From an uncultured bacterium (GTDB taxonomy: Bacteria; Patescibacteriota; Saccharimonadia; Saccharimonadales; Saccharimonadaceae), in NCBI GenBank assembly GCA_903889015.1, contig CAISVS010000010.1, positions 1 through 11,232 of the forward strand: a stretch of DNA of 11,232 nt, read 5' to 3'. The position numbers and the translations under genes are program-made. This document shows, in pieces, positions 163-10,875 of this stretch (the first letter of the stretch is position 1; each line of letters starts with the position of its first letter). The notes below the pieces were generated by a model that was not told the origin of the DNA, made no database searches, and saw only the letters and a list, made by a program, of their open reading frames with translations.

Positions 163-498
163 ATGGACATGAATAGTCACATAGTCAAACCTGATGATAA
201 TAAACCATTTCACAGTAATGGCTATGCCGAGATCGCAAATGCTAATCAGATTGGATCGACATCTAGCTTAACGTTTGAACGGCGTCAATCAATTGAAAGT
301 AATCGTCAAGTAATTGGTAGCTATAAGCGTTCGAGTATTGGTACGACTTACAGCGTAATGCGCGCAAAACCAGTTGCCGAAAAGGCAATGAGTCGCAATA
401 TTATTCGTCAGAGATCGGCGTTGCCACAGCGTAATATGTCACCAACAACAAGACGTTTCAGTGAACCATCAGGGCGGACTTTTAACCCGTACGCTTAG
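163..498 (+). CDS. Small basic, probably disordered protein, unknown function
   Basis: This is a 111-residue protein I do not recognise. It has no signal peptide, membrane helix or cysteine. It is rich in Ser, Asn and Gln and carries a clear excess of Arg and Lys over Asp and Glu; most of the arginines lie in the C-terminal two-thirds, including paired Arg near residues 40-41 and 97-98. Such composition suits a nucleic-acid-binding or largely unfolded protein, but that is inference. The start may be the ATG at 163 or the in-frame ATG at 169; no ribosome site separates them, and a consensus -10 lies close upstream. It converges on the murA-like gene with 13 nt between the stop codons and no terminator in the gap. 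A spurious reading frame is possible but less likely given its length and promoter. Confidence 0.6.
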   Translation: MDMNSHIVKPDDNKPFHSNGYAEIANANQIGSTSSLTFERRQSIESNRQVIGSYKRSSIGTTYSVMRAKPVAEKAMSRNIIRQRSALPQRNMSPTTRRFSEPSGRTFNPYA

Positions 499-511
499 GG
501 GTTAATAACTG

Positions 512-2041
512 TTAAATCTCGCGCAAAGTTTCAATGTCAGCGCCAATAGTATTCAAACGATTGGCAAAATCTTCATATCCGCGATTAATTGAATAAACAT
601 CTCGTAAAATTGATCGTCCAGGGGCAGCCAGCATGGCGATTAATATTACAACTGATGGTCTTAATGCCGGTGGAGTAACAATATCGGCTGGTTTCCATTT
701 AGTTGGGCCAGTGATGTAAACTCGGTGCGGGTCGACTAATTCGATATTAGCATTTAACTTGCTGAGTTCGGTAAAATAAATAGCGCGGTTTTCATAAGAC
801 CAGTCATGGACCATCGTGCGGCCAGTGGCAACGGTTGCAATCAAGCCCAAGAAAGGTAAATTATCCATGTTAACACCCGGAAAGGGCATACTGTGTAATT
901 TATCCTTCGGCGCCTTTAATTCAGAATGCAAAATTTTGACATCAACCAATCGGGTTTCACCGTTTCGGGCGGGGTATTCGTCACTAATTTCACATTTAAG
1001 ACCCATGTTATCCAAAATGGCCATTTCAATTTCGATAAATTCGATTGGAGCGCGTTTGACAGTGATTTCAGAATCAGTTACGATGCCGGCGGCAATCAAA
1101 CTCATGGCTTCGATTGGATCTTCGCTGGGATAATATTCGACATTTTTATTAATACTACGCAGACCACGAATTTTAAGGGTAGTTGTACCAATACCTTCGA
1201 TTTTGACGCCAAGTTTTTGTAAAAAGAAGCAAACATCTTGGACCATGTAATTTGGGCTGGCATTACGGATAGTAACTTCGCCATCGTACAGGGCAGCCGC
1301 CATAATGACATTTTCAGTCGTTGTGTCGCCGCGTTCGGTCAATAAAATACTGTGTGTAACGGGCTTTTCTTTGACGGTGGCGTGATAATAATCACCAGTT
1401 GCCTCAACATGCAGCCCGAATGGCGCCAAACCTGTCATATGAGGTTCAACGGTACGAGTTCCTAGGTTGCAACCACCAGCAAACGGCAATTTAAAATCTT
1501 TGTATTGATGTAGTAATGGGCCTAATAGCATAATGACAGTTCGAGTACGTTTAGCGGCTTCGACGTCGATATTATCTAGTTTTAATCTTGCAGGTGGAAT
1601 AATTTCAAGGTCGTTTTTGTCATTTAGCCAACGAACTTTGACGCCTATACTTTGCAAGACTTCAATAATACGGTTTACTTCTTCGATACGCGCTACGCGA
1701 CGAATAATTGTCGTGCCGTGGTTTAACAGGCTGGCGCACAACAGGCCAACGGCGGCATTTTTGCTGGTTTTAACCTCAATTTCGCCCGATAGTTTTTTGC
1801 CACCATTAATGCGAAAATTGATTTTACCAGATTGATTAAGGGTAACGAGTTCGCTTGACAAAACCTCACTAATGCGGGCCAACATCTCAAGGCTGATATT
1901 TTGACCACCTTTTTCGATGCGGTTTATGGCACTTTGACTGGTGTTTAAGGCTTCAGCTAGTTGAGATTGAGTTAAGCCTCTTGATTGTCTGGTCTCTTGA
2001 ATTAATGCTCCGATTTTGACTTTGTAATCGCTAGTTTTCAT
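512..2041 (-). CDS. murA: HTH-MurA fusion: UDP-GlcNAc 1-carboxyvinyltransferase with XRE-type DNA-binding domain
   Basis: MurA transfers enolpyruvate from PEP to UDP-GlcNAc, the first committed cytoplasmic step of peptidoglycan synthesis. This 509-residue protein has an XRE/Cro-type helix-turn-helix at about residues 9-65 (recognition core LTQSQLAEALNTSQSAI at 23-39), then a full EPT-fold domain from about 75 to the end. Visible MurA marks are SKN at 93-95 (Lys and Asn of the active site), LPFAGGCNLGTR at 185-196 (the Cys of fosfomycin sensitivity is Cys191), ENR at 417-419, an ALRPS segment at 459-463 and a terminal INRGYE. The usual FPTDxQ catalytic loop is changed to FPGVNMDNLPF, so the general-acid Asp is displaced or replaced. 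The ATG at 2041 is chosen because the longer frame starts with a TTG that is itself the -35 box. The gene is divergent from glyA. It may be the working MurA with self-regulation, or an enzyme-like sensor. Confidence 0.85.
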   Translation of the reverse strand: MKTSDYKVKIGALIQETRQSRGLTQSQLAEALNTSQSAINRIEKGGQNISLEMLARISEVLSSELVTLNQSGKINFRINGGKKLSGEIEVKTSKNAAVGLLCASLLNHGTTIIRRVARIEEVNRIIEVLQSIGVKVRWLNDKNDLEIIPPARLKLDNIDVEAAKRTRTVIMLLGPLLHQYKDFKLPFAGGCNLGTRTVEPHMTGLAPFGLHVEATGDYYHATVKEKPVTHSILLTERGDTTTENVIMAAALYDGEVTIRNASPNYMVQDVCFFLQKLGVKIEGIGTTTLKIRGLRSINKNVEYYPSEDPIEAMSLIAAGIVTDSEITVKRAPIEFIEIEMAILDNMGLKCEISDEYPARNGETRLVDVKILHSELKAPKDKLHSMPFPGVNMDNLPFLGLIATVATGRTMVHDWSYENRAIYFTELSKLNANIELVDPHRVYITGPTKWKPADIVTPPALRPSVVILIAMLAAPGRSILRDVYSINRGYEDFANRLNTIGADIETLREI

Positions 2042-2048
2042 ATATTCA

Positions 2049-2077
2049 ATAATATACCAATTATGATATATGGTCAA
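2049..2077 (-). promoter_or_regulatory. murA promoter, leaderless layout
   Basis: On the minus strand, TTGACC (2077-2072) and TATTAT (2054-2049) are separated by 17 nt, with a G-rich TGG inside the spacer. The ATG at 2041 follows the -10 after exactly 7 nt, so the predicted transcript begins at or within 1-2 nt of the start codon. No Shine-Dalgarno sequence is present. Confidence 0.65.
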
Positions 2078-2173: not shown

Positions 2174-2180
2174 AAATGTG

Positions 2181-3458
2181 ATGAAAGATGAAAAGATTGC
2201 AGCTTGTATTACAGGCGAAGAAAACAGACAACGTGACGGTCTAGAATTAATACCTAGTGAAAATTATGTCAGTCGGGACGTTTTGACAGCACTAGGCAGT
2301 GTATTTACTAACAAATATTCTGAGGGCTATCCAGGTAGGCGTTATTACGGTGGTCAACAATTTACCGATCAAGTTGAACAATTGGCAATTGACCGTGCTA
2401 AACAGCTGTTTAAGGCTGATCATGCCAATGTTCAACCACATTCAGGTGCACCAGCCAACGAGGCCGTTTACAGCGCTTGGTTGGAGCCAGGCGACACAGT
2501 GCTGGCAATGGACCTAAGTCACGGCGGACACCTCACACACGGCGCGCCAGTGACTCGTAGTGCGCATTTATATAACTTTATTCGTTACAAGATGAAGGAC
2601 GTTTCAACTGGCGAGATTGACTATGAAAATTTGCGTGAATTAGCGTTAAAACACAAACCTAAAATTATCTTGGCTGGATTTAGTGCATACCCAAGGGAAC
2701 TGGACTACGCTAAATTTGCTGCGATTGGTAATGAAGTTGGGGCACTGTTGATGGCAGATATGGCACATATTGCTGGCTTGATTGCTGGTGGCGTAGCCAA
2801 AAACCCATTCGATTATGGTTTTCATGTTATTACGACGACAACTCACAAAACTTTGCGTGGTCCACGCGGTGGAATGATTTTGTCGATGGGCAAAGTAGGG
2901 AATCCATTGAAGGCGCCTGAAAAGACGCTTGAAAACATTCCAACGTTAATCGATCGATCAATCTTCCCTGGTATGCAAGGCGGTCCACATATGCATTCAA
3001 TCGCTGCCAAGGCTGTAGCCTTTAATGAAGCTCTACAGCCTGAATTTAAACAGTATGCTCAGCAAATTATCGATAACGCGTCAACATTGGCCCAGGAGAT
3101 GCAAAAGCAAGGTTTTCAATTGGTGACAGGCGGCACCAGTAATCACTTGATACTTGCCGATGTCTATAAAAGCTTTGGTTTGGATGGTAAAGTGGTAGAG
3201 GTAGCATTGGATGCAATTGGATTAACGCTAAATGCAAATGCCATTGCCGATGATACATTACCACCATTTAGGCCAAGTGGTATCAGGTTAGGTACGCCAG
3301 CGATTACAACTCGTGGATTAAAGCAAAATCATATGGCTCAAATTGCATCTTGGATGAAACAGGCGATTGATAATCGTGATAATCCAGATCAGCTGGCTAA
3401 ACTAAAGCTGGAAGTTACGACTTTTGCAAGGTCATTCCCATTACCTAGTGATAAGTAA
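2181..3458 (+). CDS. glyA: Serine hydroxymethyltransferase
   Basis: GlyA is a cytoplasmic PLP enzyme that interconverts serine and glycine while loading a one-carbon unit onto tetrahydrofolate; it feeds glycine, methionine and nucleotide synthesis. The 425-residue length is typical of bacterial SHMT. Family landmarks in order are ELIPSENYVS near residues 22-31, the YPGRRYYGG segment near 50-58, NVQPHSGAPAN at 83-93, DMAHIAGL from 193, and the PLP-lysine motif TTTTHKTLRGPRGG with Lys223. The start is set by the AGGAGG 7 nt upstream. The gene is divergent from the HTH-MurA fusion, with 139 nt between start codons, and ends at a strong hairpin shared with the converging pilin. A palindrome over its -35 region suggests regulated expression. 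Identification is secure. Confidence 0.96.
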   Translation: MKDEKIAACITGEENRQRDGLELIPSENYVSRDVLTALGSVFTNKYSEGYPGRRYYGGQQFTDQVEQLAIDRAKQLFKADHANVQPHSGAPANEAVYSAWLEPGDTVLAMDLSHGGHLTHGAPVTRSAHLYNFIRYKMKDVSTGEIDYENLRELALKHKPKIILAGFSAYPRELDYAKFAAIGNEVGALLMADMAHIAGLIAGGVAKNPFDYGFHVITTTTHKTLRGPRGGMILSMGKVGNPLKAPEKTLENIPTLIDRSIFPGMQGGPHMHSIAAKAVAFNEALQPEFKQYAQQIIDNASTLAQEMQKQGFQLVTGGTSNHLILADVYKSFGLDGKVVEVALDAIGLTLNANAIADDTLPPFRPSGIRLGTPAITTRGLKQNHMAQIASWMKQAIDNRDNPDQLAKLKLEVTTFARSFPLPSDK

Positions 3459-3529: not shown

Positions 3530-3976
3530 CTATGAGCAAGTTGTACCGTTGTCAGCTGTTGCGTCGCCACCGAATAGGTAAGCAACTGAACCTGATCCAC
3601 TGTAATCCCAGTAACCTACACAGATACCTGTTGCACCTTTTTGTCGGTATGACAAAGCTGTTGCAGTACCAGAAGTAACAGAAGTGCTTGTAACTGTTAA
3701 GCCTGTAGGGATTTTAGCATCGCTAGCGTTCAAGTTAGCAATTACTGTAGCTGAAGTTGCGTTTGTTGCTGGGAATGCGCTAGTGTTAGCGTATACGATT
3801 TGGGCAGCAGCAAGGACGCTACTTGCATTTTGTTTGTTAGCAGCTGTATTTGCGCGTGCTGTGATACCAGTATAAGAAACAATCGTGATTGCTGCCAAAA
3901 TACCGATAACGACGATAACGACCAAAAGCTCTACGATTGTAAACCCTTCTTTTTTATTGATATTTGCTTTTGTCAT
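3530..3976 (-). CDS. Type IV pilin, short paralogue 1
   Basis: This is a 148-residue prepilin. It has a short Lys-rich leader, cleavage after Gly11, Phe12 as the mature first residue and the conserved Glu at mature position 5 (Glu16), followed by a hydrophobic helix to about residue 37 that would pack in the pilus core and anchor the subunit in the membrane before assembly. The C-terminal half is Thr/Ser/Ala-rich with GYWDYSG at 121-127 and two cysteines, Cys119 and Cys147, probably closing a disulfide loop like the D-region of other type IV pilins. AAAGGAG lies 6 nt before the ATG at 3976. It has its own promoter just after the stop of paralogue 2. It is likely a major shaft subunit, though a minor one cannot be excluded. 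Confidence 0.9.
   Translation of the reverse strand: MTKANINKKEGFTIVELLVVIVVIGILAAITIVSYTGITARANTAANKQNASSVLAAAQIVYANTSAFPATNATSATVIANLNASDAKIPTGLTVTSTSVTSGTATALSYRQKGATGICVGYWDYSGSGSVAYLFGGDATADNGTTCS
3861..3945 (-). repeat. Pilin N-terminal DNA repeat, copy A
   Basis: This 85-bp block encodes the leader cleavage site and N-terminal helix. It matches copy C at 77 of 85 positions and copy B at 73 of 85, without gaps. Divergence outside the block is much larger. Confidence 0.8.
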
Positions 3977-4006
3977 TTTATGCTCCTTTATTATGATTAT
4001 GCTTAT

Positions 4007-4036
4007 AATTTACTACAAAACTTGCATTAGCACAAG
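4007..4036 (-). promoter_or_regulatory. Pilin-type promoter A (CTTGTGC-17-TAAATT)
   Basis: On the minus strand, CTTGTGC (4036-4030) and TAAATT (4012-4007) are separated by 17 nt. Two other pilin genes carry the same arrangement. Predicted transcription starts near 4000, giving a leader of about 24 nt that includes AAAGGAG (3989-3983). Confidence 0.6.
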
Positions 4037-4043
4037 CGGTTTG

Positions 4044-4511
4044 TCATGTACAAGTTGGTGTTGCGACGTTTGATCCTGCTGTAGCATTACCAGCGTATAA
4101 GTAAACAGCTGATCCAGAACCACTATAGTCCCAATACCCAATACAGATTCCAGCGCCGCCATTGGTAAGATATTGGATTGTTGCACCTGCAGCTAATTGA
4201 GCATTATTAACCGTCAGACCTGTAGGAATCTTGGCGCTGCCGGCGTTTAAGTTTGCTACAACTGTCGCTGACGTTGCACCTGTTGCTGGGAACGTGGAGG
4301 TTGCGCTGTCAGTGTATACCATTTGCGCAGCGCGACGTACGCTGTTTGCGTTGTTTTTGTTGGCAGTAGTATTTGCCTTAGCAGTAATACCAGTATAAGA
4401 AACAATTGTAATTGCTGCCAAGATACCGATAACGACGATAACGACTAGCAGTTCGACAATCGTAAAACCACGACTTTGTGTTAGCCTATGTACATTATTC
4501 AATTCTTTCAT
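4044..4511 (-). CDS. Type IV pilin, short paralogue 2
   Basis: This is a 155-residue prepilin with cleavage after Gly15, mature Phe16 and Glu20 at mature position 5, then a hydrophobic helix almost identical to its neighbours. The globular part aligns with paralogue 1 along its length: an FPAT segment, NLNAxxAKIPTGLTV, and GYWDYSG at 125-131. Cys123 and Cys154 sit at the same places as in paralogue 1, suggesting the same disulfide loop. The ATG at 4511 follows a purine-rich AAGGGAAGGG ending 8 nt upstream, a weaker ribosome site than in paralogue 1. Its own promoter lies at 4551-4580. No terminator separates it from the next promoter. Very close relationship to paralogue 1 suggests tandem duplication and a shared role in the pilus shaft. 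Confidence 0.9.
   Translation of the reverse strand: MKELNNVHRLTQSRGFTIVELLVVIVVIGILAAITIVSYTGITAKANTTANKNNANSVRRAAQMVYTDSATSTFPATGATSATVVANLNAGSAKIPTGLTVNNAQLAAGATIQYLTNGGAGICIGYWDYSGSGSAVYLYAGNATAGSNVATPTCT
4384..4468 (-). repeat. Pilin N-terminal DNA repeat, copy B
   Basis: This is the equivalent 85-bp block in paralogue 2. Compared with copy A it differs at 12 positions, seven of them clustered in the segment encoding the mature N-terminus (4444-4461). Confidence 0.8.
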
Positions 4512-4550
4512 TAAGTGCGCCCTTCCCTTTATGGTTGTGAATATGTATTT

Positions 4551-4580
4551 AATATACTACTTCTTTAATATAAGCACAAG
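4551..4580 (-). promoter_or_regulatory. Pilin-type promoter B (CTTGTGC-17-TATATT)
   Basis: On the minus strand, CTTGTGC (4580-4574) and TATATT (4556-4551) are 17 nt apart. The spacer ends in GTAG, as in promoter A, and the start region reads TAAATACATA, close to TTAGATACATAA in promoter C. The predicted leader is about 33 nt. Confidence 0.6.
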
Positions 4581-4630
4581 TAGTATATATTTGTGATATA
4601 TATTACACGTGTCTACATTCTGTGGATAAA

Positions 4631-4658
4631 TTAATACCCCCGATGAAGGGGGTATTAA
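4631..4658 (-). terminator. Terminator after short pilin paralogue 3
   Basis: An 11-bp stem, TTAATACCCCC paired with GGGGGTATTAA, closes a six-base loop. It lies 17 nt past the stop of the 186-residue pilin, and on the minus strand it is followed by a T-rich tail (TTTAT). Confidence 0.75.
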
Positions 4659-4675
4659 AGTTTTGCTTATTGGGA

Positions 4676-5236
4676 TCAAGTTGCTGTGTAGTAACAAGCG
4701 ACCAAGTTGGCATATGTTGTTCCACCTGAGATGAATGGTCCTACAGAACCTGATACTGCGTTTCCAGCAGACAATGTTGCCTGTTGAGGGGTTGCAGCTG
4801 AGTAATCCCAGTATCCAACAATGACACCGGTTGGGTTTGTTATGGCAGCTAAGTTAGCTGGTGCTGTATATGTTGCACCGGTTTGTGATGTTGTACCACA
4901 TACTTGGTATGAGATTTGGGTCATGCTTGCTGCGGCTAGTGCTGCAGAAGCAGTAACTGTTACACCACTTATAGCTGCTGAAGATGAGGTTGCAGACAAT
5001 GCAAGCGCACCTGTTAGCGGCCAGTTAAGTGTTGAACCTTCTGTTTGGTAAATACCAGCTTTTGAAATGACATTAGATGCCATTTGTTTGGTTGATGCAG
5101 CGTTTGCCCTAGCGGTGATACCAGTGTAAGAAACGATCGTAATTGCTGCCAAGATACCGATAACAACGATGACGACCAAAAGCTCGACGATTGTAAAACC
5201 GTGGTCCTTTTTAGCTTTGATATTTTGTAGACTCAT
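4676..5236 (-). CDS. Type IV pilin, short paralogue 3 (longer, divergent tail)
   Basis: This is a 186-residue prepilin. The leader is cleaved after Gly13, mature Phe14 is followed by Glu18 at position 5, and the N-terminal helix matches the other two nearly residue for residue. The globular domain has diverged: GYWDYS is kept at 141-146 but is followed by a different, longer tail, and the two cysteines are at 113 and 181, so the presumed disulfide would enclose a loop of nearly 70 residues rather than about 30. AGGAA sits unusually close (3 nt) to the ATG at 5236, with a G-rich AGGGGG further upstream. It has its own promoter and terminator, so it is probably monocistronic. It could be an alternative shaft subunit or a minor pilin with different surface properties. 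Confidence 0.88.
   Translation of the reverse strand: MSLQNIKAKKDHGFTIVELLVVIVVIGILAAITIVSYTGITARANAASTKQMASNVISKAGIYQTEGSTLNWPLTGALALSATSSSAAISGVTVTASAALAAASMTQISYQVCGTTSQTGATYTAPANLAAITNPTGVIVGYWDYSAATPQQATLSAGNAVSGSVGPFISGGTTYANLVACYYTAT
5115..5199 (-). repeat. Pilin N-terminal DNA repeat, copy C
   Basis: This is the 85-bp block in paralogue 3, differing from copy A at only 8 positions although the rest of the two genes hardly align. This suggests gene conversion or strong constraint on the helix. Confidence 0.8.
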
Positions 5237-5272
5237 ATTCCTGTGTGCCCCCTAATTATTAGTTATGTATCT

Positions 5273-5302
5273 AATTTACTATACTATTTATGTAAGCACA
5301 AG
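5273..5302 (-). promoter_or_regulatory. Pilin-type promoter C (CTTGTGC-17-TAAATT)
   Basis: On the minus strand, CTTGTGC (5302-5296) and TAAATT (5278-5273) are 17 nt apart, and the spacer ends in GTATAG. It lies just beyond the stop of the LamG pilin, so paralogue 3 does not depend on read-through from that operon. The predicted leader is about 30 nt. Confidence 0.6.
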
Positions 5303-5310
5303 TGGAATTA

Positions 5311-6867
5311 TTATATGCCATATCTGTATCTGATCGCGTTAAAATTTTGCTGGATTTCTATACCGGTCAAAGAGCGATTATATATTTGTATGTTACTCAT
5401 TTTGCCGTCCCAATAAGCGTCACCTGACCAGTTGCTTCTGCCGATGTAGTTATTGTTTATAACAACGTTTGTAACATTAACACCGCTAGTAACACCAACT
5501 AGCGATCCGTCTTTGTAAAGTTTTAATGTTCCGTTTGGGTCTATCGTTCCGACAAGATTTGTCCAGACACCAGCTACTAAAACGTTAGGTATGCTCATTG
5601 AATAGCATGTGGTGCCGCTACAATCTTGCCAAAAGACAGTTCCTGTACCTGTGCTTAATCTACCCATAATAATATTGTCGCTTGGTACGCCGTTTCCGAA
5701 ATCAATAATTCTTTCAAATGTGCCGCTAAAATCATTATTTATCACCCAAGCTGAAATTGAAAAGCCGTTAGCGCTGTACCAGTTTTTTGAAGGTAGGCTG
5801 ACGTAATTATTGGCCCCATTAAATACTATATTTCCGCTGTTATATAATGGCGTATTTTGTAGCGTAGCGTTGTAGGTGTTATTGCTCAGATTAGTCCATG
5901 TTGACCCAGAGCCGGAATATGAAGCTGGGTTACCTGAATCCAGATTAACAACTGCACCATTAGTCACTGTATCTGAATAGGCTGATGTATTATTATTTGG
6001 GCTGATTGATCGTATCGTACCAGACTGAGTAATATCTCGACCAGCTATGGTGTTAGCTGCGCTGATTGTAACGCTTATTGTACTAGCTGTTTGCAGTGCA
6101 GCTTGCCTGACGTTATCTGTTTGAGAACCGTCATTAGCTGTTGAACTTGCCAAGGGGTCATTACAAGCATTCGCACCAGACGTATTGGCGCCTGGTGTTG
6201 TAAAGTAACTAACGCAAAAGCCACCAGATTGAATATTGTCGACTAGTTTTTCGTCTTTTGCTACACACATTGTGCCTGTGGCGGTTGCCGAACAACTTGG
6301 TTGTTGCCAGGGTTTGTCAACTGATCCATTTACACAACCAGTCGTCGCATAATTAGCAGGTGCAATAACTCGTCGCCATAATGTATTATTCTTTACAAAA
6401 TAGACAATATTCATCATCAGCGGCTGATTTTGGTTAACCAAAGCATTACTGCATGAATTAGGCTGATTAGATATATATACAATATTACGTGTCAAGATAG
6501 TTGGGTTGGATGTTGTTGCATAGGTATTTAAAATTAATATTTGCCCGATTGCGCTGCTGGAGTTGGCGTTATGAAAAGGGGTCGCATCGTTGTCATTATA
6601 GCCCTGTGGTGATATAACGTTGATATTGTTTGTCGCTAAAAATGAACTACTTAAATTAACATCTGATTGTATACGATTTAAAGCATCTTGAATGTTGTAA
6701 GCCATACTGTTGGATGCTCGGGTTGCCAATACATCACCAGTCATACTGACGATTGCGCTAATAAAAATGCCAATCATCAAGATGACGATAGGTGCAATAA
6801 TTAGCATTTCAACCAATGTAAAACCAGGGTGCAAGTTAAGCTTACGTTTTTGATTATGGTTTGACAT
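5311..6867 (-). CDS. Large minor pilin with C-terminal LamG-like lectin domain, candidate pilus adhesin
   Basis: This 518-residue protein has a prepilin leader (PGFTLVE, cleavage after Gly15, Glu20 at mature position 5) and a hydrophobic helix to about residue 40. Residues 50-290 resemble PilW/PulJ-type minor pilins in layout and contain many cysteines. From about 306 to 518 there is a concanavalin-A/LamG-like jelly roll: LDSGNPASYSGSGSTW, VFNGANNYVSLP, GFSISAWV, WTNLVGTIDPNGTLKLYKDG, IGRSN and YWDGKMSNIQIYNRSLT, in the order usual for that fold. Such domains bind glycans or proteins, so this is a likely tip adhesin. Its start overlaps the preceding minor pilin by 14 nt with no Shine-Dalgarno, implying translational coupling. 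It is the last gene of the three-gene operon. The pilin part is certain; the ligand is unknown. Confidence 0.88.
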   Translation of the reverse strand: MSNHNQKRKLNLHPGFTLVEMLIIAPIVILMIGIFISAIVSMTGDVLATRASNSMAYNIQDALNRIQSDVNLSSSFLATNNINVISPQGYNDNDATPFHNANSSSAIGQILILNTYATTSNPTILTRNIVYISNQPNSCSNALVNQNQPLMMNIVYFVKNNTLWRRVIAPANYATTGCVNGSVDKPWQQPSCSATATGTMCVAKDEKLVDNIQSGGFCVSYFTTPGANTSGANACNDPLASSTANDGSQTDNVRQAALQTASTISVTISAANTIAGRDITQSGTIRSISPNNNTSAYSDTVTNGAVVNLDSGNPASYSGSGSTWTNLSNNTYNATLQNTPLYNSGNIVFNGANNYVSLPSKNWYSANGFSISAWVINNDFSGTFERIIDFGNGVPSDNIIMGRLSTGTGTVFWQDCSGTTCYSMSIPNVLVAGVWTNLVGTIDPNGTLKLYKDGSLVGVTSGVNVTNVVINNNYIGRSNWSGDAYWDGKMSNIQIYNRSLTGIEIQQNFNAIRYRYGI

Positions 6868-7237
6868 AAGTCGCGACGTTTAAGGTTTGTTGGGGTGTAT
6901 TATACTGGATTGTTACTAATACTTTTGACACTGTCAATGTAGCTGGATATGGACAAGATATAACCACTGATACGGTCGCGTTGGCGATGATATCATCAGT
7001 AATGGTCTGGTTGGTAATTGGAGTTAATGCCGAGCAGGGATTAGTGGCATTTGGCTTGTATCGTTGCAAATAGTCATAGGCAATGTTGCTAGCGCGAGCT
7101 TGAGCGCGGGCGTCACCACCGTCCTTCATAATGACGTCATATAATTGGTATCCCGTCATCAAAAATGCGGCGGCGATAAATAAAGTTACTAGTAACTCGA
7201 CAGTTGTGAATCCATTCGATTTTATTTGTTTTTTCAT
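6854..7237 (-). CDS. Small minor pilin (prepilin-type N-terminus)
   Basis: This is a 127-residue protein with a Lys-rich leader, cleavage after Gly9, mature Phe10 and Glu14 at mature position 5 (FTTVELL), then a hydrophobic helix to about residue 33. The remainder is a short globular domain with Cys68 and Cys95, a possible disulfide, and a beta-rich C-terminus. It resembles the PilV/PulI-type minor pilins that form a priming complex with a PulJ-type partner. The partner is plausibly the overlapping LamG pilin. Its ATG overlaps the stop of the upstream gene (ATGA) and its stop lies 14 nt inside the downstream gene, so the three genes are probably translated in a coupled fashion. No independent ribosome site or promoter is visible. 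Confidence 0.85.
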   Translation of the reverse strand: MKKQIKSNGFTTVELLVTLFIAAAFLMTGYQLYDVIMKDGGDARAQARASNIAYDYLQRYKPNATNPCSALTPITNQTITDDIIANATVSVVISCPYPATLTVSKVLVTIQYNTPQQTLNVATYVKP

Positions 7238-8586
7238 TGGTTTTTACTCGTTACCATATATACAGTATCGTCCGATTCAAGGTGATAGTAAAGATTGAAT
7301 TTACGGCATTCTTGTGATTCGAAAGTGCATAATGAACCATCGCTTTGCAAAGGTTGATAAACATATTGATTGATACTTGGCTGAGGTGCGACTCCGGCTG
7401 TTGTTTGAACGTTATTAGCAGCAGCAACAAAAGTTTGCGCCCAATCAGTAATGCCAGGAGCGGTGATTGATGAGGTGTCTAGGTCGCGCAATATGTTTTG
7501 AATATTATAGGCAGTAAACTTAGTTACCGTAAAAGTCCCATTGCTAGTAAAGGTATGGATTGTATTTCCCCCGGCGTAGGCTGGGGTTGATCTGGAATTC
7601 AGATTATTTGCATCAGTATATGTTATTGTGCCGCCAGTTGCTGTTATCGAAGCAGAAGGGTAGCTGATAATCACGATTCCTGAACCACCATTGCCGCCCG
7701 CTCCTCCTCCGCCACCAGTGTTTGCTGTACCTGATACTCCTCCCGCTCCTCCTCCGCCATTACCACCAGAAGAATAGCTTTCAGCACCTGCTGAAGTGAT
7801 TCCATGTCCACCGCCACCAGCTGCGTAGAAGATACTTGAACCAGATATTGAATTAACAAGCCCATCGCCTCCATTGCCAGGTAGATTATTAGTTGAGGTG
7901 GCTCCAGTGCCAGATGCGTTAGATCCTACGGTTCCTGCTCCACCGCCCCCACCACCAGCTGTCCATCCGCCGGTTCCATTTCCAACGCCAGAACCTCCGC
8001 TATTACCTTGACCAACTGTGGGGGTTCCGCCATTTTTTGTGCCTGCTGGCCATCCACCACCACCACCACCAGAACCTCCATTGTTACCATTTGCTGAGAC
8101 TGAATAGCCTGCTCCACCACCACCACCAACAGCAGTAATTGTTGAGAATATAGAATTACCGCCATTTCCGCCGACTTCAGAACTTGATATTCCAGCAATT
8201 CCACCAATTCCAACTGTAATATTGTATGATTGTTGAACAACGGATAGTGAAGCGTTGTATTGATAACCGCCACCACCTCCACCACCACCTCTAGAGTAGC
8301 CTCCGCCACCACCTCCTGCAACAACTAAAGCCTTTATTGGCAAGCTAGATGCTGTACCAGTAATTAGCGTAGTTGATGGATATCTTCCAACAGTTTGGCT
8401 GGTGTCTGAACCAGCGATATAATACGTTTCCAGATTGGATGCAATTGCTTCAATGTCGATTTTGCGTTCGGCGTCCCGAGCACTCATTTGGGAACCACGA
8501 AGGTTAACAACGTTTAGGATTAGTAAAGCCCCCATAATAGTTATGACGACTAGCAGTTCGACGATAGTAAACCCACGACGTTTCAT
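7234..8586 (-). CDS. Minor pilin carrying an inserted glycine-rich domain
   Basis: This is a 450-residue protein. It begins as a prepilin (MKRRG cleaved after Gly5, mature Phe6, Glu10 at mature position 5, helix to about residue 28). A normal pilin segment follows to about residue 80. Then comes a glycine-rich domain (about 83-311) that starts IKALVVAGGGGGG, contains repeated GGGGG/GGNGG blocks between short beta strands, and ends GGSGIVIISYP. A beta repeat follows (TGGTITYTD ... IHTFTSNGTFTV, about 317-354). The pilin sequence resumes at about 359 (NIQNILRDLD ... CRKFNLYYHLESDDTVY) with Cys420 and Cys427. The glycine-rich type is known from phage adhesins and other surface proteins. The start at 8586 is preferred over the ATG at 8598, which lies inside the -10 box. 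It is first in a three-gene operon and is probably a surface adhesin or spacer subunit. Confidence 0.88.
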   Translation of the reverse strand: MKRRGFTIVELLVVITIMGALLILNVVNLRGSQMSARDAERKIDIEAIASNLETYYIAGSDTSQTVGRYPSTTLITGTASSLPIKALVVAGGGGGGYSRGGGGGGGGYQYNASLSVVQQSYNITVGIGGIAGISSSEVGGNGGNSIFSTITAVGGGGGAGYSVSANGNNGGSGGGGGGWPAGTKNGGTPTVGQGNSGGSGVGNGTGGWTAGGGGGGAGTVGSNASGTGATSTNNLPGNGGDGLVNSISGSSIFYAAGGGGHGITSAGAESYSSGGNGGGGAGGVSGTANTGGGGGAGGNGGSGIVIISYPSASITATGGTITYTDANNLNSRSTPAYAGGNTIHTFTSNGTFTVTKFTAYNIQNILRDLDTSSITAPGITDWAQTFVAAANNVQTTAGVAPQPSINQYVYQPLQSDGSLCTFESQECRKFNLYYHLESDDTVYMVTSKNQ

Positions 8587-8593
8587 AGTATTA

Positions 8594-8622
8594 ATCATAA
8601 ACGTTTTAAGTGTGAACCGCAA
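8594..8622 (-). promoter_or_regulatory. Promoter of the minor-pilin operon, leaderless layout
   Basis: On the minus strand, TTGCGG (8622-8617) and TATGAT (8599-8594) are 17 nt apart, and the ATG at 8586 follows after exactly 7 nt. The alternative in-frame ATG at 8598 is part of the -10 hexamer itself, so it cannot be on this transcript. No Shine-Dalgarno sequence is present. Confidence 0.55.
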
Positions 8623-8629
8623 GTGCAAG

Positions 8630-8703: not shown

Positions 8704-9723
8704 TTATATTTCTAGTGGTTCTTGTTCGATTTGGACATGAAAGGTATCACGCACCTTGCCAATAATTTCGTTGCGAGCCATAGACAGTTCCATATATGAG
8801 GTTGCAGACTCGTTGACTAATACTAATGCATTATTTTCAAAAACACGCATGCCGTGAATTAATTGTCCTTTTAGGCCACAATTTTCAATCAACCAGCCAG
8901 CTGGTATTTTATATGTCCCATCAGCCATTTCGTACATTGGAATATTTGGGTTGATTGCTTTTAAGCCGTCGACTTGCCATTTTTCAACAATAGCGTTTTT
9001 AAAGAACGATCCAGTGTTTGGTGATACGGCAGGATTTGGTAATTTAGTGTTGCGAATTTGGATAACGATATCTCGAATAATTTGACTGGTGAATAAGTGT
9101 ATATTATGTTCGTCAAAGTATTTTTGCAAAGCTTCATAAAATGGTGGCTGTGGTTGATTTTTTGATAGCTTCAAAGTAATGGCGGTAATGACATAACGAC
9201 CTTTGGCGTCGCTGCGGAAAATACTGTCACGATAAGTAAAATTACAATCGGCGGCTGGCAAAACACCAAAAGTGTTTGTCAGACTGTCGTAAGCGTCAAT
9301 TGATATCAATGTGTCGGCAATTTCTTGGCCATAGGCGCCGACGTTTTGAACAGGAGTGGCCCCAGCGGTACCAGGAATACCTGACATTGCTTCAATACCA
9401 CTTAATCCCAATTCAACTGATCGTTTAACAACTGAATCCCAGTTTTCGCCTGCGCCAATATGAATAGTAGTTGAAGCGGCATCATCAGCGATTATTTCAA
9501 ATCCTTCAATGCGCATACGTGCGACAATACCATTAAAACCTTCGTCACGGGCGATGACATTGCTGCCACCGCCTAGTATAAACACTGGCAATGATTGTGC
9601 CGAAGCGCTGTTGTATACATCAGCGACTTCTTGTGGTGTGCGGACCTCGGTCATAAAGCGAGCGTTACCGCCCAACTTCATGGTAGTAAAATTCTTCAGG
9701 GGAATGTTAGTGTGAATATCCAT
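8704..9723 (-). CDS. murB: UDP-N-acetylenolpyruvoylglucosamine reductase (type I MurB)
   Basis: MurB is the cytoplasmic FAD enzyme that reduces the MurA product with NADPH to give UDP-MurNAc. The 339-residue length and motifs fit the E. coli-like type I family: GGGSNVI at 51-57 and PGTAGATPVQNVGAYGQE at 117-134 (FAD binding), YRDS at 164-167, GSFFKN at 238-243 with the catalytic Ser239, IPAGWLIE at 273-280, and ALVLVNE at 299-305. The C-terminal EQE at 333-335 supplies the acidic residue that pairs with the serine in known enzymes. The ATG at 9723 follows TATAAT after 8 nt, with no Shine-Dalgarno. The gene is divergent from tRNA-Arg and followed by the minor-pilin operon on the same strand, separated by an inverted repeat. 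With the HTH-MurA fusion it forms the UDP-MurNAc branch. Confidence 0.95.
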   Translation of the reverse strand: MDIHTNIPLKNFTTMKLGGNARFMTEVRTPQEVADVYNSASAQSLPVFILGGGSNVIARDEGFNGIVARMRIEGFEIIADDAASTTIHIGAGENWDSVVKRSVELGLSGIEAMSGIPGTAGATPVQNVGAYGQEIADTLISIDAYDSLTNTFGVLPAADCNFTYRDSIFRSDAKGRYVITAITLKLSKNQPQPPFYEALQKYFDEHNIHLFTSQIIRDIVIQIRNTKLPNPAVSPNTGSFFKNAIVEKWQVDGLKAINPNIPMYEMADGTYKIPAGWLIENCGLKGQLIHGMRVFENNALVLVNESATSYMELSMARNEIIGKVRDTFHVQIEQEPLEI

Positions 9724-10077: not shown

Positions 10078-10875
10078 ATGTCTATTATCGATGCAATTAT
10101 TTTAGGTCTGGTGCAGGGGATTACAGAATTCTTGCCAATCAGCAGTTCGGGCCATCTGGTCATCGTCAGCCATATCTTAGGTGCCAACAATGCTTTTACA
10201 TTTGATGTTTTGTTGAATTTCGGTTCATTATTAGCGTTGATTATTTATTATCGATTACGAATTTGGTCGATTATTGTTAGGATTTTTAGTGGTAAAGAAT
10301 GGCTATTAGTCGCAAAAGTTGTTGTTGCGACTATTCCGGCTATATTTTTAGGTCTGGTATTCAACAGTCAGATTGAACAATTGAACGGTATGATTTGGGT
10401 GGTTATTGCGACGTTAATAATTATTGGTATTCCAATGATTATTATGGGCAAGGCGAATGATGGCGCTGATAATCGCGAGATCGAAAAATCAGTTGGCTGG
10501 AGATTGGCGCTTAAAACTGGTATAACGCAAGCGTTTGCATTGGTACCTGGCGTGTCACGCTCGGGGATTACAATACTAACCGGCCTTCGCAATAATTTAA
10601 GCGCCGAGCGAGCGGCTGAATTTAGCTTTTTGTTGGCCATACCTATAATCGCTGGTGCAAGTTTGAAAATGTTAGTGTCAAGCGAAGGAATTGAATTTAT
10701 TCGAAATAATTCGACAGCTTTTGTTATTGGCAACGTCGTATGTTTTATATCAGGAACACTGGCGATTAATTTTATGATTAAACTTATCGAAAAACGTGGC
10801 CTGAAAGATTTTGGTTGGTATCGGGTAATTTTAGCCGCCATATTGACGGTGTTATTGTTGTTGGGCATATTGTAA
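10078..10875 (+). CDS. uppP: Undecaprenyl-diphosphatase (UppP/BacA family)
   Basis: UppP is an integral membrane phosphatase that converts undecaprenyl diphosphate to the monophosphate lipid carrier used for peptidoglycan precursors; in other bacteria its overproduction gives bacitracin resistance. The 265-residue length is typical. The first family motif is complete: Gln13 and Glu17 form the (E/Q)xxxE pair in LVQGITEFLP, followed by ISSSGHLVI with His26. The second motif PGVSRSG at 157-163 provides the catalytic Arg161. Several hydrophobic segments (about 41-57, 80-95, 105-123, 184-200, 213-235 and 248-265) agree with a multi-pass membrane protein. The ATG at 10078 directly follows a leaderless-type promoter. 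It stands alone between the tRNA relic and the hairpin-chain region, and links functionally to murA and murB. Confidence 0.95.
   Translation: MSIIDAIILGLVQGITEFLPISSSGHLVIVSHILGANNAFTFDVLLNFGSLLALIIYYRLRIWSIIVRIFSGKEWLLVAKVVVATIPAIFLGLVFNSQIEQLNGMIWVVIATLIIIGIPMIIMGKANDGADNREIEKSVGWRLALKTGITQAFALVPGVSRSGITILTGLRNNLSAERAAEFSFLLAIPIIAGASLKMLVSSEGIEFIRNNSTAFVIGNVVCFISGTLAINFMIKLIEKRGLKDFGWYRVILAAILTVLLLLGIL

Follow-up and report, generated by a model that had tools for sequence, protein, structure and literature searches.

A MurA enzyme carrying an XRE-type helix-turn-helix, and a predicted operator in its own promoter, in Saccharibacteria and Actinomycetota

Peptidoglycan synthesis begins with MurA, which is also what fosfomycin targets. 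The enzyme is known to be controlled through proteolysis, protein partners, and feedback; to our knowledge, DNA binding of its own is not among these controls. Several metabolic enzymes, such as PutA, BirA, and NadR, possess a DNA-binding domain of their own and act on genes of their own pathway, and we know of none among these three that is a peptidoglycan enzyme. The closest described gene is murA2 of Streptomyces (SCO5998; sven5810; vnz_28735). According to the relevant passages of the papers concerned, S. coelicolor has two such enzymes, SCO5998/MurA2 being one (PMC12161575), murA2 is a target of BldM-WhiI (PMC4125116), SCO5998 is reported to be SigB-dependent (PMC8346170), and a DmdR1 site is predicted between SCO5998 and SCO5999 (PMC12161575), with a further source on venezuelae in the murA2 context (PMC11005364). 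The passages on murA2 in these papers mention neither a helix-turn-helix (HTH), nor autoregulation, nor the palindrome described below. The open-access literature searched yielded no account of a MurA whose HTH acts on the promoter of its own gene and no publication on a transfer of such a gene, and the motif strings searched for were absent from the main text of PMC12565409, which deals with XRE palindromes.

Here we describe a MurA joined to an N-terminal HTH (HTH-MurA), encoded in the window, that is, the whole stretch of 11,232 nucleotides analysed (contig CAISVS010000010.1 of GCA_903889015.1, from an uncultured bacterium of the Saccharimonadaceae). The protein itself is already in databases, and the published murA2 is probably the HTH-MurA of Streptomyces. 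New are the predicted operator, its link to the HTH, its loss together with the helix, and the likely transfer.

The fused protein and its gene

The reading frame runs on the minus strand from an ATG at 2041 to a stop at 512-514, and the plus strand across 512-2041 contains many stops. The protein and its parts are as follows.

512..2041, minus strand: HTH-murA gene, 509 aa (open reading frame, Pfam, NCBIfam, relatives' alignments)
1853..2017, minus strand: XRE HTH domain, residues 9-63 (Pfam, alignment, AlphaFold2)
1913..1936, minus strand: recognition helix, residues 36-43 (Q36, S37, and E43 invariant)
1820..1852, minus strand: linker, residues 64-74
515..1819, minus strand: MurA domain, residues 75-509 (eight active-site positions conserved)

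The first-pass annotation had read a complete HTH followed by a complete MurA, and this is what the 509 residues contain, an XRE HTH at 9-63 and a MurA with an intact active site. Both Pfam matches, HTH_3 (residues 14-63, E 2.7e-14, 53.3 bits vs a cut-off of 23) and EPSP_synthase (residues 79-496, E 2.3e-45), lie above cut-off. The AlphaFold2 model, built on a 40-row alignment (mean pLDDT 90.1, pTM 0.83), places helices at 3-20, 25-31, 36-43, and 51-60, followed by a linker with pLDDT <50 at 66-72 and a confident MurA. A single alignment passes through both domains in 32 of the 40 relatives' genomes searched, own genome counted, and three more hold HTH-MurA in pieces (G019, G022, G036; 35/40 in total), so that the frame is neither due to chance nor mis-joined; the split in G022 is only apparent and falls on a run of N in the assembly. 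Among the same 40 genomes, G002 and G020 gave a weak HTH match only, and G001, G011, and G027 gave no match.

Membership in the XRE/Cro-CI group is indicated by HTH_3 over its cut-off, by the conserved recognition helix, and, from comparative genomics, by the palindrome at the own promoter described below. The HipB/Y4mF model TIGR03070 matches residues 9-65 (E 5.6e-13), with 48.6 bits where its cut-off of 71.65 is not reached. Within the helix, Q36, S37, and E43 are found in 131/131 sequences, A38 in 130, and S35 and R41 in 129 each, and by analogy with the 434 repressor we take Q36, S37, S35, A38, and R41 to be the DNA-contact positions. A lack of conservation at such residues had been named in the first-pass annotation as evidence against its proposal; they are conserved in 129-131 of 131. 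Specific DNA binding by an HTH-MurA dimer is predicted.

For the MurA half, the NCBIfam model PRK09369 scores 327.7 bits, above its cut-off of 297, and the equivalog cut-off of TIGR01072 is not reached (309.2 vs 392.7 bits). The other HTH-MurAs of a 60-genome search (below) likewise miss this cut-off, which marks them as a divergent subfamily. Positions K22, N23, R91, C115, R120, D305, R371, and R397, which we take as E. coli MurA numbering, are each conserved in 133/133 sequences, so that the MurA half looks active, and HTH-MurA is presumably a working enzyme. The best PDB match is 5u4h (residues 75-504). Classical MurA, of E. coli and others, shares the fold and the same eight positions; it differs in having neither HTH nor operator, and it shows ~28-37% identity to the window protein in the loci compared.

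Distribution, second MurAs, and neighboring genes

Saccharibacteria share HTH-MurA as a family trait, and it is also frequent in some Actinomycetota. Among the nearest relatives, those with a named record mostly go by Candidatus Saccharibacteria. The survey of homologues for the N-terminal HTH, proposed in the first-pass annotation, shows the architecture beyond these relatives in samples of Patescibacteria and Actinomycetota. Among 286 Patescibacteria genomes, 35 alignments reach into the HTH, with a degenerate HTH in G047 and G147; all 22 genomes of the window's own order are among the 35, and the three genomes of the same class outside that order gave distant matches only. A further 17 Patescibacteria genomes hold a close (45-57% identity) HTH-free MurA, and the remaining MurA matches of this sample have <=37% identity, among the matches listed. 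At least 12 of 296 Actinomycetota genomes carry HTH-MurA, in two frames in G472, with up to five candidates scored per genome. It occurs in 27/41 genomes of the order of G504, and in the order of G547 all 117 genomes match (E 1.1e-177 or better), 53 of them without another match by a hand count in which G765 was only partly scored.

The window's own genome (671 kb, 71% complete) gave a single EPSP/MurA match. Whether a second, HTH-free murA accompanies the fusion, a point raised by the first-pass annotation, has a divided answer in the TIGR01072 search of 60 genomes hand-chosen from earlier matches. None was found in 40 Patescibacteria, each with one MurA match (39 HTH-MurA, and an HTH-free one in G171), nor in 10 of 20 Actinomycetota, whose further matches are weak only (E 5e-12 or weaker) and are read as EPSP-synthase-like; the other 10 also possess a classical MurA above the TIGR01072 cut-off. 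Nine Streptomyces-sized genomes of this search hold classical MurA together with HTH-MurA, resembling the two MurAs of S. coelicolor. HTH-MurA is thus often the sole MurA found, which is an indirect hint of enzyme activity.

Upstream of murA lies a divergent gene:

2178..3458, plus strand: glyA, serine hydroxymethyltransferase (Pfam), 136 bp from murA

The same arrangement, glyA on the opposite strand upstream of murA, was observed in 49 of 80 loci (L032-L111), 57-197 bp apart except in two. Elsewhere in the window, a small ORF at 163-498 (plus strand), convergent with murA, has no Pfam or NCBIfam match, and similar sequence occurs in 19 of 80 relatives' loci. A run of prepilin-like genes occupies 3530-8628 on the minus strand, one with a Gly_rich_2 and one with a Laminin_G_3 domain, and murB and an undecaprenyl-diphosphatase gene lie on the same contig as murA, at 8704-9723 and 10078-10875.

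The promoter palindrome and its link to the recognition helix

A scan of 130 upstream regions for perfect palindromes revealed a recurring dyad ~28 bp before the start codon, which resolves into an 18-bp palindrome, TATMTCA-N4-TGAKATA, inside the HTH-murA promoter and ~29 bp upstream of the start codon. It was scored as TATMTCANNNNTGAKATA with a threshold of 12/14, both pattern and threshold being chosen after the first locus set was seen. The left arm is mostly TATATCA in Patescibacteria and mostly TATCTCA in Actinomycetota. In the window, the elements are as follows.

2053..2070, minus strand: predicted operator TATATCATAATTGGTATA, 13/14 specified positions, -29 to -12 from the ATG
2072..2077, minus strand: -35-like TTGACC of the murA promoter (consensus scan)
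2049..2054, minus strand: -10-like TATTAT, 17-nt spacer, 7 nt before the ATG (consensus scan)

The predicted operator lies across the spacer of the promoter-like TTGACC-17-TATTAT pair and reaches into its -10, and the murA mRNA may be leaderless. The scan found 2 promoter-like pairs vs 1.2 in shuffles, which makes the promoter call itself weak. An extended -10 reads TGnTATAAT; the right arm of the operator overlaps the -10 and resembles this form, and its conservation may partly be that of the promoter. A GC-rich perfect 20-bp palindrome at 2108-2127, between murA and glyA, was rejected as an operator, as its core occurs in 2/181 loci, both of them window copies, and on the minus strand it scores like a terminator. 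In the closest relative, L003, a different palindrome of similar form lies upstream of murA.

The site reaches >=12/14 in 108 of 133 distinct HTH-murA upstreams, 100 of the 108 at -36..-19, and 20 shuffled sets gave a mean of 1.6 (maximum 4). It is absent from HTH-free murA upstreams, in 0/46 rows (two of which, L150 and L207, are the same gene) and in 0/17 of the close kin. A dyad test free of any consensus found >=6/7 pairs at -34..-22 in 59% of 54 representatives vs 5% of 44 HTH-free upstreams. The left arm is not a promoter element, and, given a right arm, it is present in 99/121 HTH-murA upstreams vs 39/756 background places and 2/13 HTH-free ones.

Held-out loci behaved in the same manner. 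Nonomuraea gerenzanensis and Streptomyces sp. BHT-5-2 (2/2) each gave 13/14 as the best match in 6.5 kb. With the pattern fixed, 49 new loci were scored: 47 attain the threshold of 12, in each case at the usual place, and the other two have 11/14 there; many of the 49 are near relatives and do not count as 49 independent events. Three HTH-free murA in this test had no site (0/3). In a divergent set of 20 loci from the lower-identity end of G547's order, an intact helix goes with a score of at least 12 in 15/15 cases; the position is the usual one in 14 of them and -57 in L354. The other five (L345, L352, L356, L357, and L363) are actinobacterial HTH-MurAs whose recognition helix has decayed; they score 7-8/14 (0/5 with a site) and keep a full-length MurA frame. 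Two Patescibacteria with a decayed HTH score 8 and 10.

On a 100-row tree, 61 rows with an intact helix have the site and 9 do not, and of the rows in which the helix is not intact, 0 have it and 30 do not; ten rows of this tree were hand-picked from the 49 new loci, all with a site, which somewhat flatters the 61:9 split and leaves 0/30 untouched. Six independent pairs could be drawn, with 5.5 on average in the same direction and 0 opposite (median p 0.031, range 0.031-0.125), and a 72-row tree gave four pairs (p 0.125).

Within whole genomes the site is sparse. The window's own genome has one place within 1 mismatch, the murA site, and five within 2; within 3 mismatches there are 78 places vs 66 for the reversed control, so that weak sites are uninformative. 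All seven HTH-MurA Actinomycetota tested have the site before HTH-murA, with 10 sites within 1 mismatch, 3 of them elsewhere, and five Actinomycetota without HTH-MurA have no site within 1 mismatch. Patescibacteria contain a few other sites within 1 mismatch whether HTH-MurA is present or not, and in two of the HTH-MurA genomes (G013, G033) none lies within that limit; on account of these strays and absences, only the murA site is claimed here. A wider regulon through a femAB-type gene, which carries a 2-mismatch site in the own genome, was rejected, as one of 15 relatives' loci reached 12, at -185, and three clustered sites in G012 lie inside coding ORFs and were taken as chance.

In the gut-type Saccharibacteria clade, the right arm is often kept and a good left arm is found in 2/12, often with TAT-K-CAT instead; either the operator has changed there or regulation was lost while the helix stays. 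Loci of this clade with a changed left arm are L095, L097-L104, L106-L109, L111, and L120-L122.

Autorepression, its alternatives, and the history of the pair

A matching palindrome in the promoter of its own gene suggests that HTH-MurA probably controls its own production, and we consider it quite probable that the protein is both a working MurA and its own transcriptional autorepressor through the predicted 18-bp operator. The XRE HTH, as a dimer, would bind TATMTCA-N4-TGAKATA between the -35 and the -10 of the own promoter, at about -29 to -12 from the ATG, where bound HTH-MurA would block RNA polymerase, and the level of MurA would set murA transcription. The computed support comprises the architecture, the conserved helix, the promoter palindrome, the single good match to it in the own genome, and the lack of this palindrome wherever the helix has been lost. 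Repression of the own promoter, as the first-pass annotation had put forward, gains support from comparative genomics in that the palindrome tracks the HTH; that HTH-MurA itself binds the palindrome is what this association suggests, and repression as the sign is read from the position of the site over the core promoter.

The proposal had also included a neighboring promoter. Of 34 murB upstreams, two have the site, in G201 (L127) and G206 (L228), the one in G201 lying between divergent murA and murB, and the other 32 lack it. Where the gap between murA and glyA is short, the promoter of glyA might come under the same operator, making glyA a possible second target.

A stronger form of autorepression, whose odds overlap with those of the general one, would have UDP-GlcNAc or PEP, the ligands suggested in the first-pass annotation, or the product alter operator binding. 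PutA, BirA, and NadR work in this way and MurA closes on its substrate, yet the modelled linker is of low confidence and probably flexible and no docking is predicted, which leaves ligand gating possible but doubtful. It is considerably less probable that a separate regulator binds the palindrome and that the HTH of MurA does something else: the other known or predicted regulators of Streptomyces murA2 noted in the sources above (BldM-WhiI, SigB at SCO5998, and DmdR1) would favor such an arrangement, but the site never occurs without an intact HTH-MurA helix, disappears where the helix alone has decayed, and is conserved across two phyla, and the BldM-WhiI-like core, present upstream in 5 of the 20 actinobacterial loci (exact in 3, one mismatch in 2), differs from it in sequence and sits at -57 to -59. 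Somewhat more improbable still is that HTH-MurA binds the palindrome and activates, or merely holds MurA at a chromosomal place; the predicted binding fits either sign, but the site lies over the spacer and the beginning of the -10, a position from which bound proteins usually block. That the HTH is vestigial or serves dimerisation without a DNA role, and the palindrome is a form of promoter only, is very improbable, for although the right arm resembles an extended -10 and some lineages have lost the HTH and kept MurA, the residues of the recognition helix do not vary between the two phyla, the left arm persists as counted above, and HTH-free kin lack the site.

As for the history of HTH-MurA and its putative operator, the 72-row MurA-domain tree unites the actinobacterial HTH-MurAs in one clade (100/98), nested together with the window's family in a larger one (99/99). 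That larger clade excludes the remaining families of the order as well as other and HTH-free Patescibacteria. A quick 100-row tree with 35 actinobacterial rows agrees (99) and groups the kin of G504 with Streptomyces otsuchiensis. The branching that would place Actinomycetota either beside the window's family or inside it has a support of only 80/81, with a distant outgroup and a long-branch warning. Given this nesting, the tree favors an origin of HTH-MurA and operator in Patescibacteria and a transfer to Actinomycetota, the phylum that hosts known Saccharibacteria. The fuller scenario, in which enzyme, HTH, and operator arose in Patescibacteria, moved as a unit, and replaced the native MurA in many actinobacterial genomes, we offer tentatively, as less likely than not to hold in full.

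If autorepression is true, the enzyme itself sets murA expression in Saccharibacteria and many Actinomycetota, by way of a precise 18-bp site, and the system would be one of the few in which gain, inter-phylum transfer, and repeated loss can be traced jointly for a regulator, its binding site, and an essential enzyme. Its palindrome resembles the HipB operator, given in the relevant passage of PMC3920265 as TATCCN8GGATA, likewise an 18-bp dyad with TAT...ATA ends at the own promoter. HTH-MurA is unlike the HipB/Y4mF antitoxins in that its HTH is joined to an enzyme. In this union of enzyme and DNA-binding domain it is like PutA, BirA, and NadR, in which control by a ligand is established and for HTH-MurA would be a possibility.
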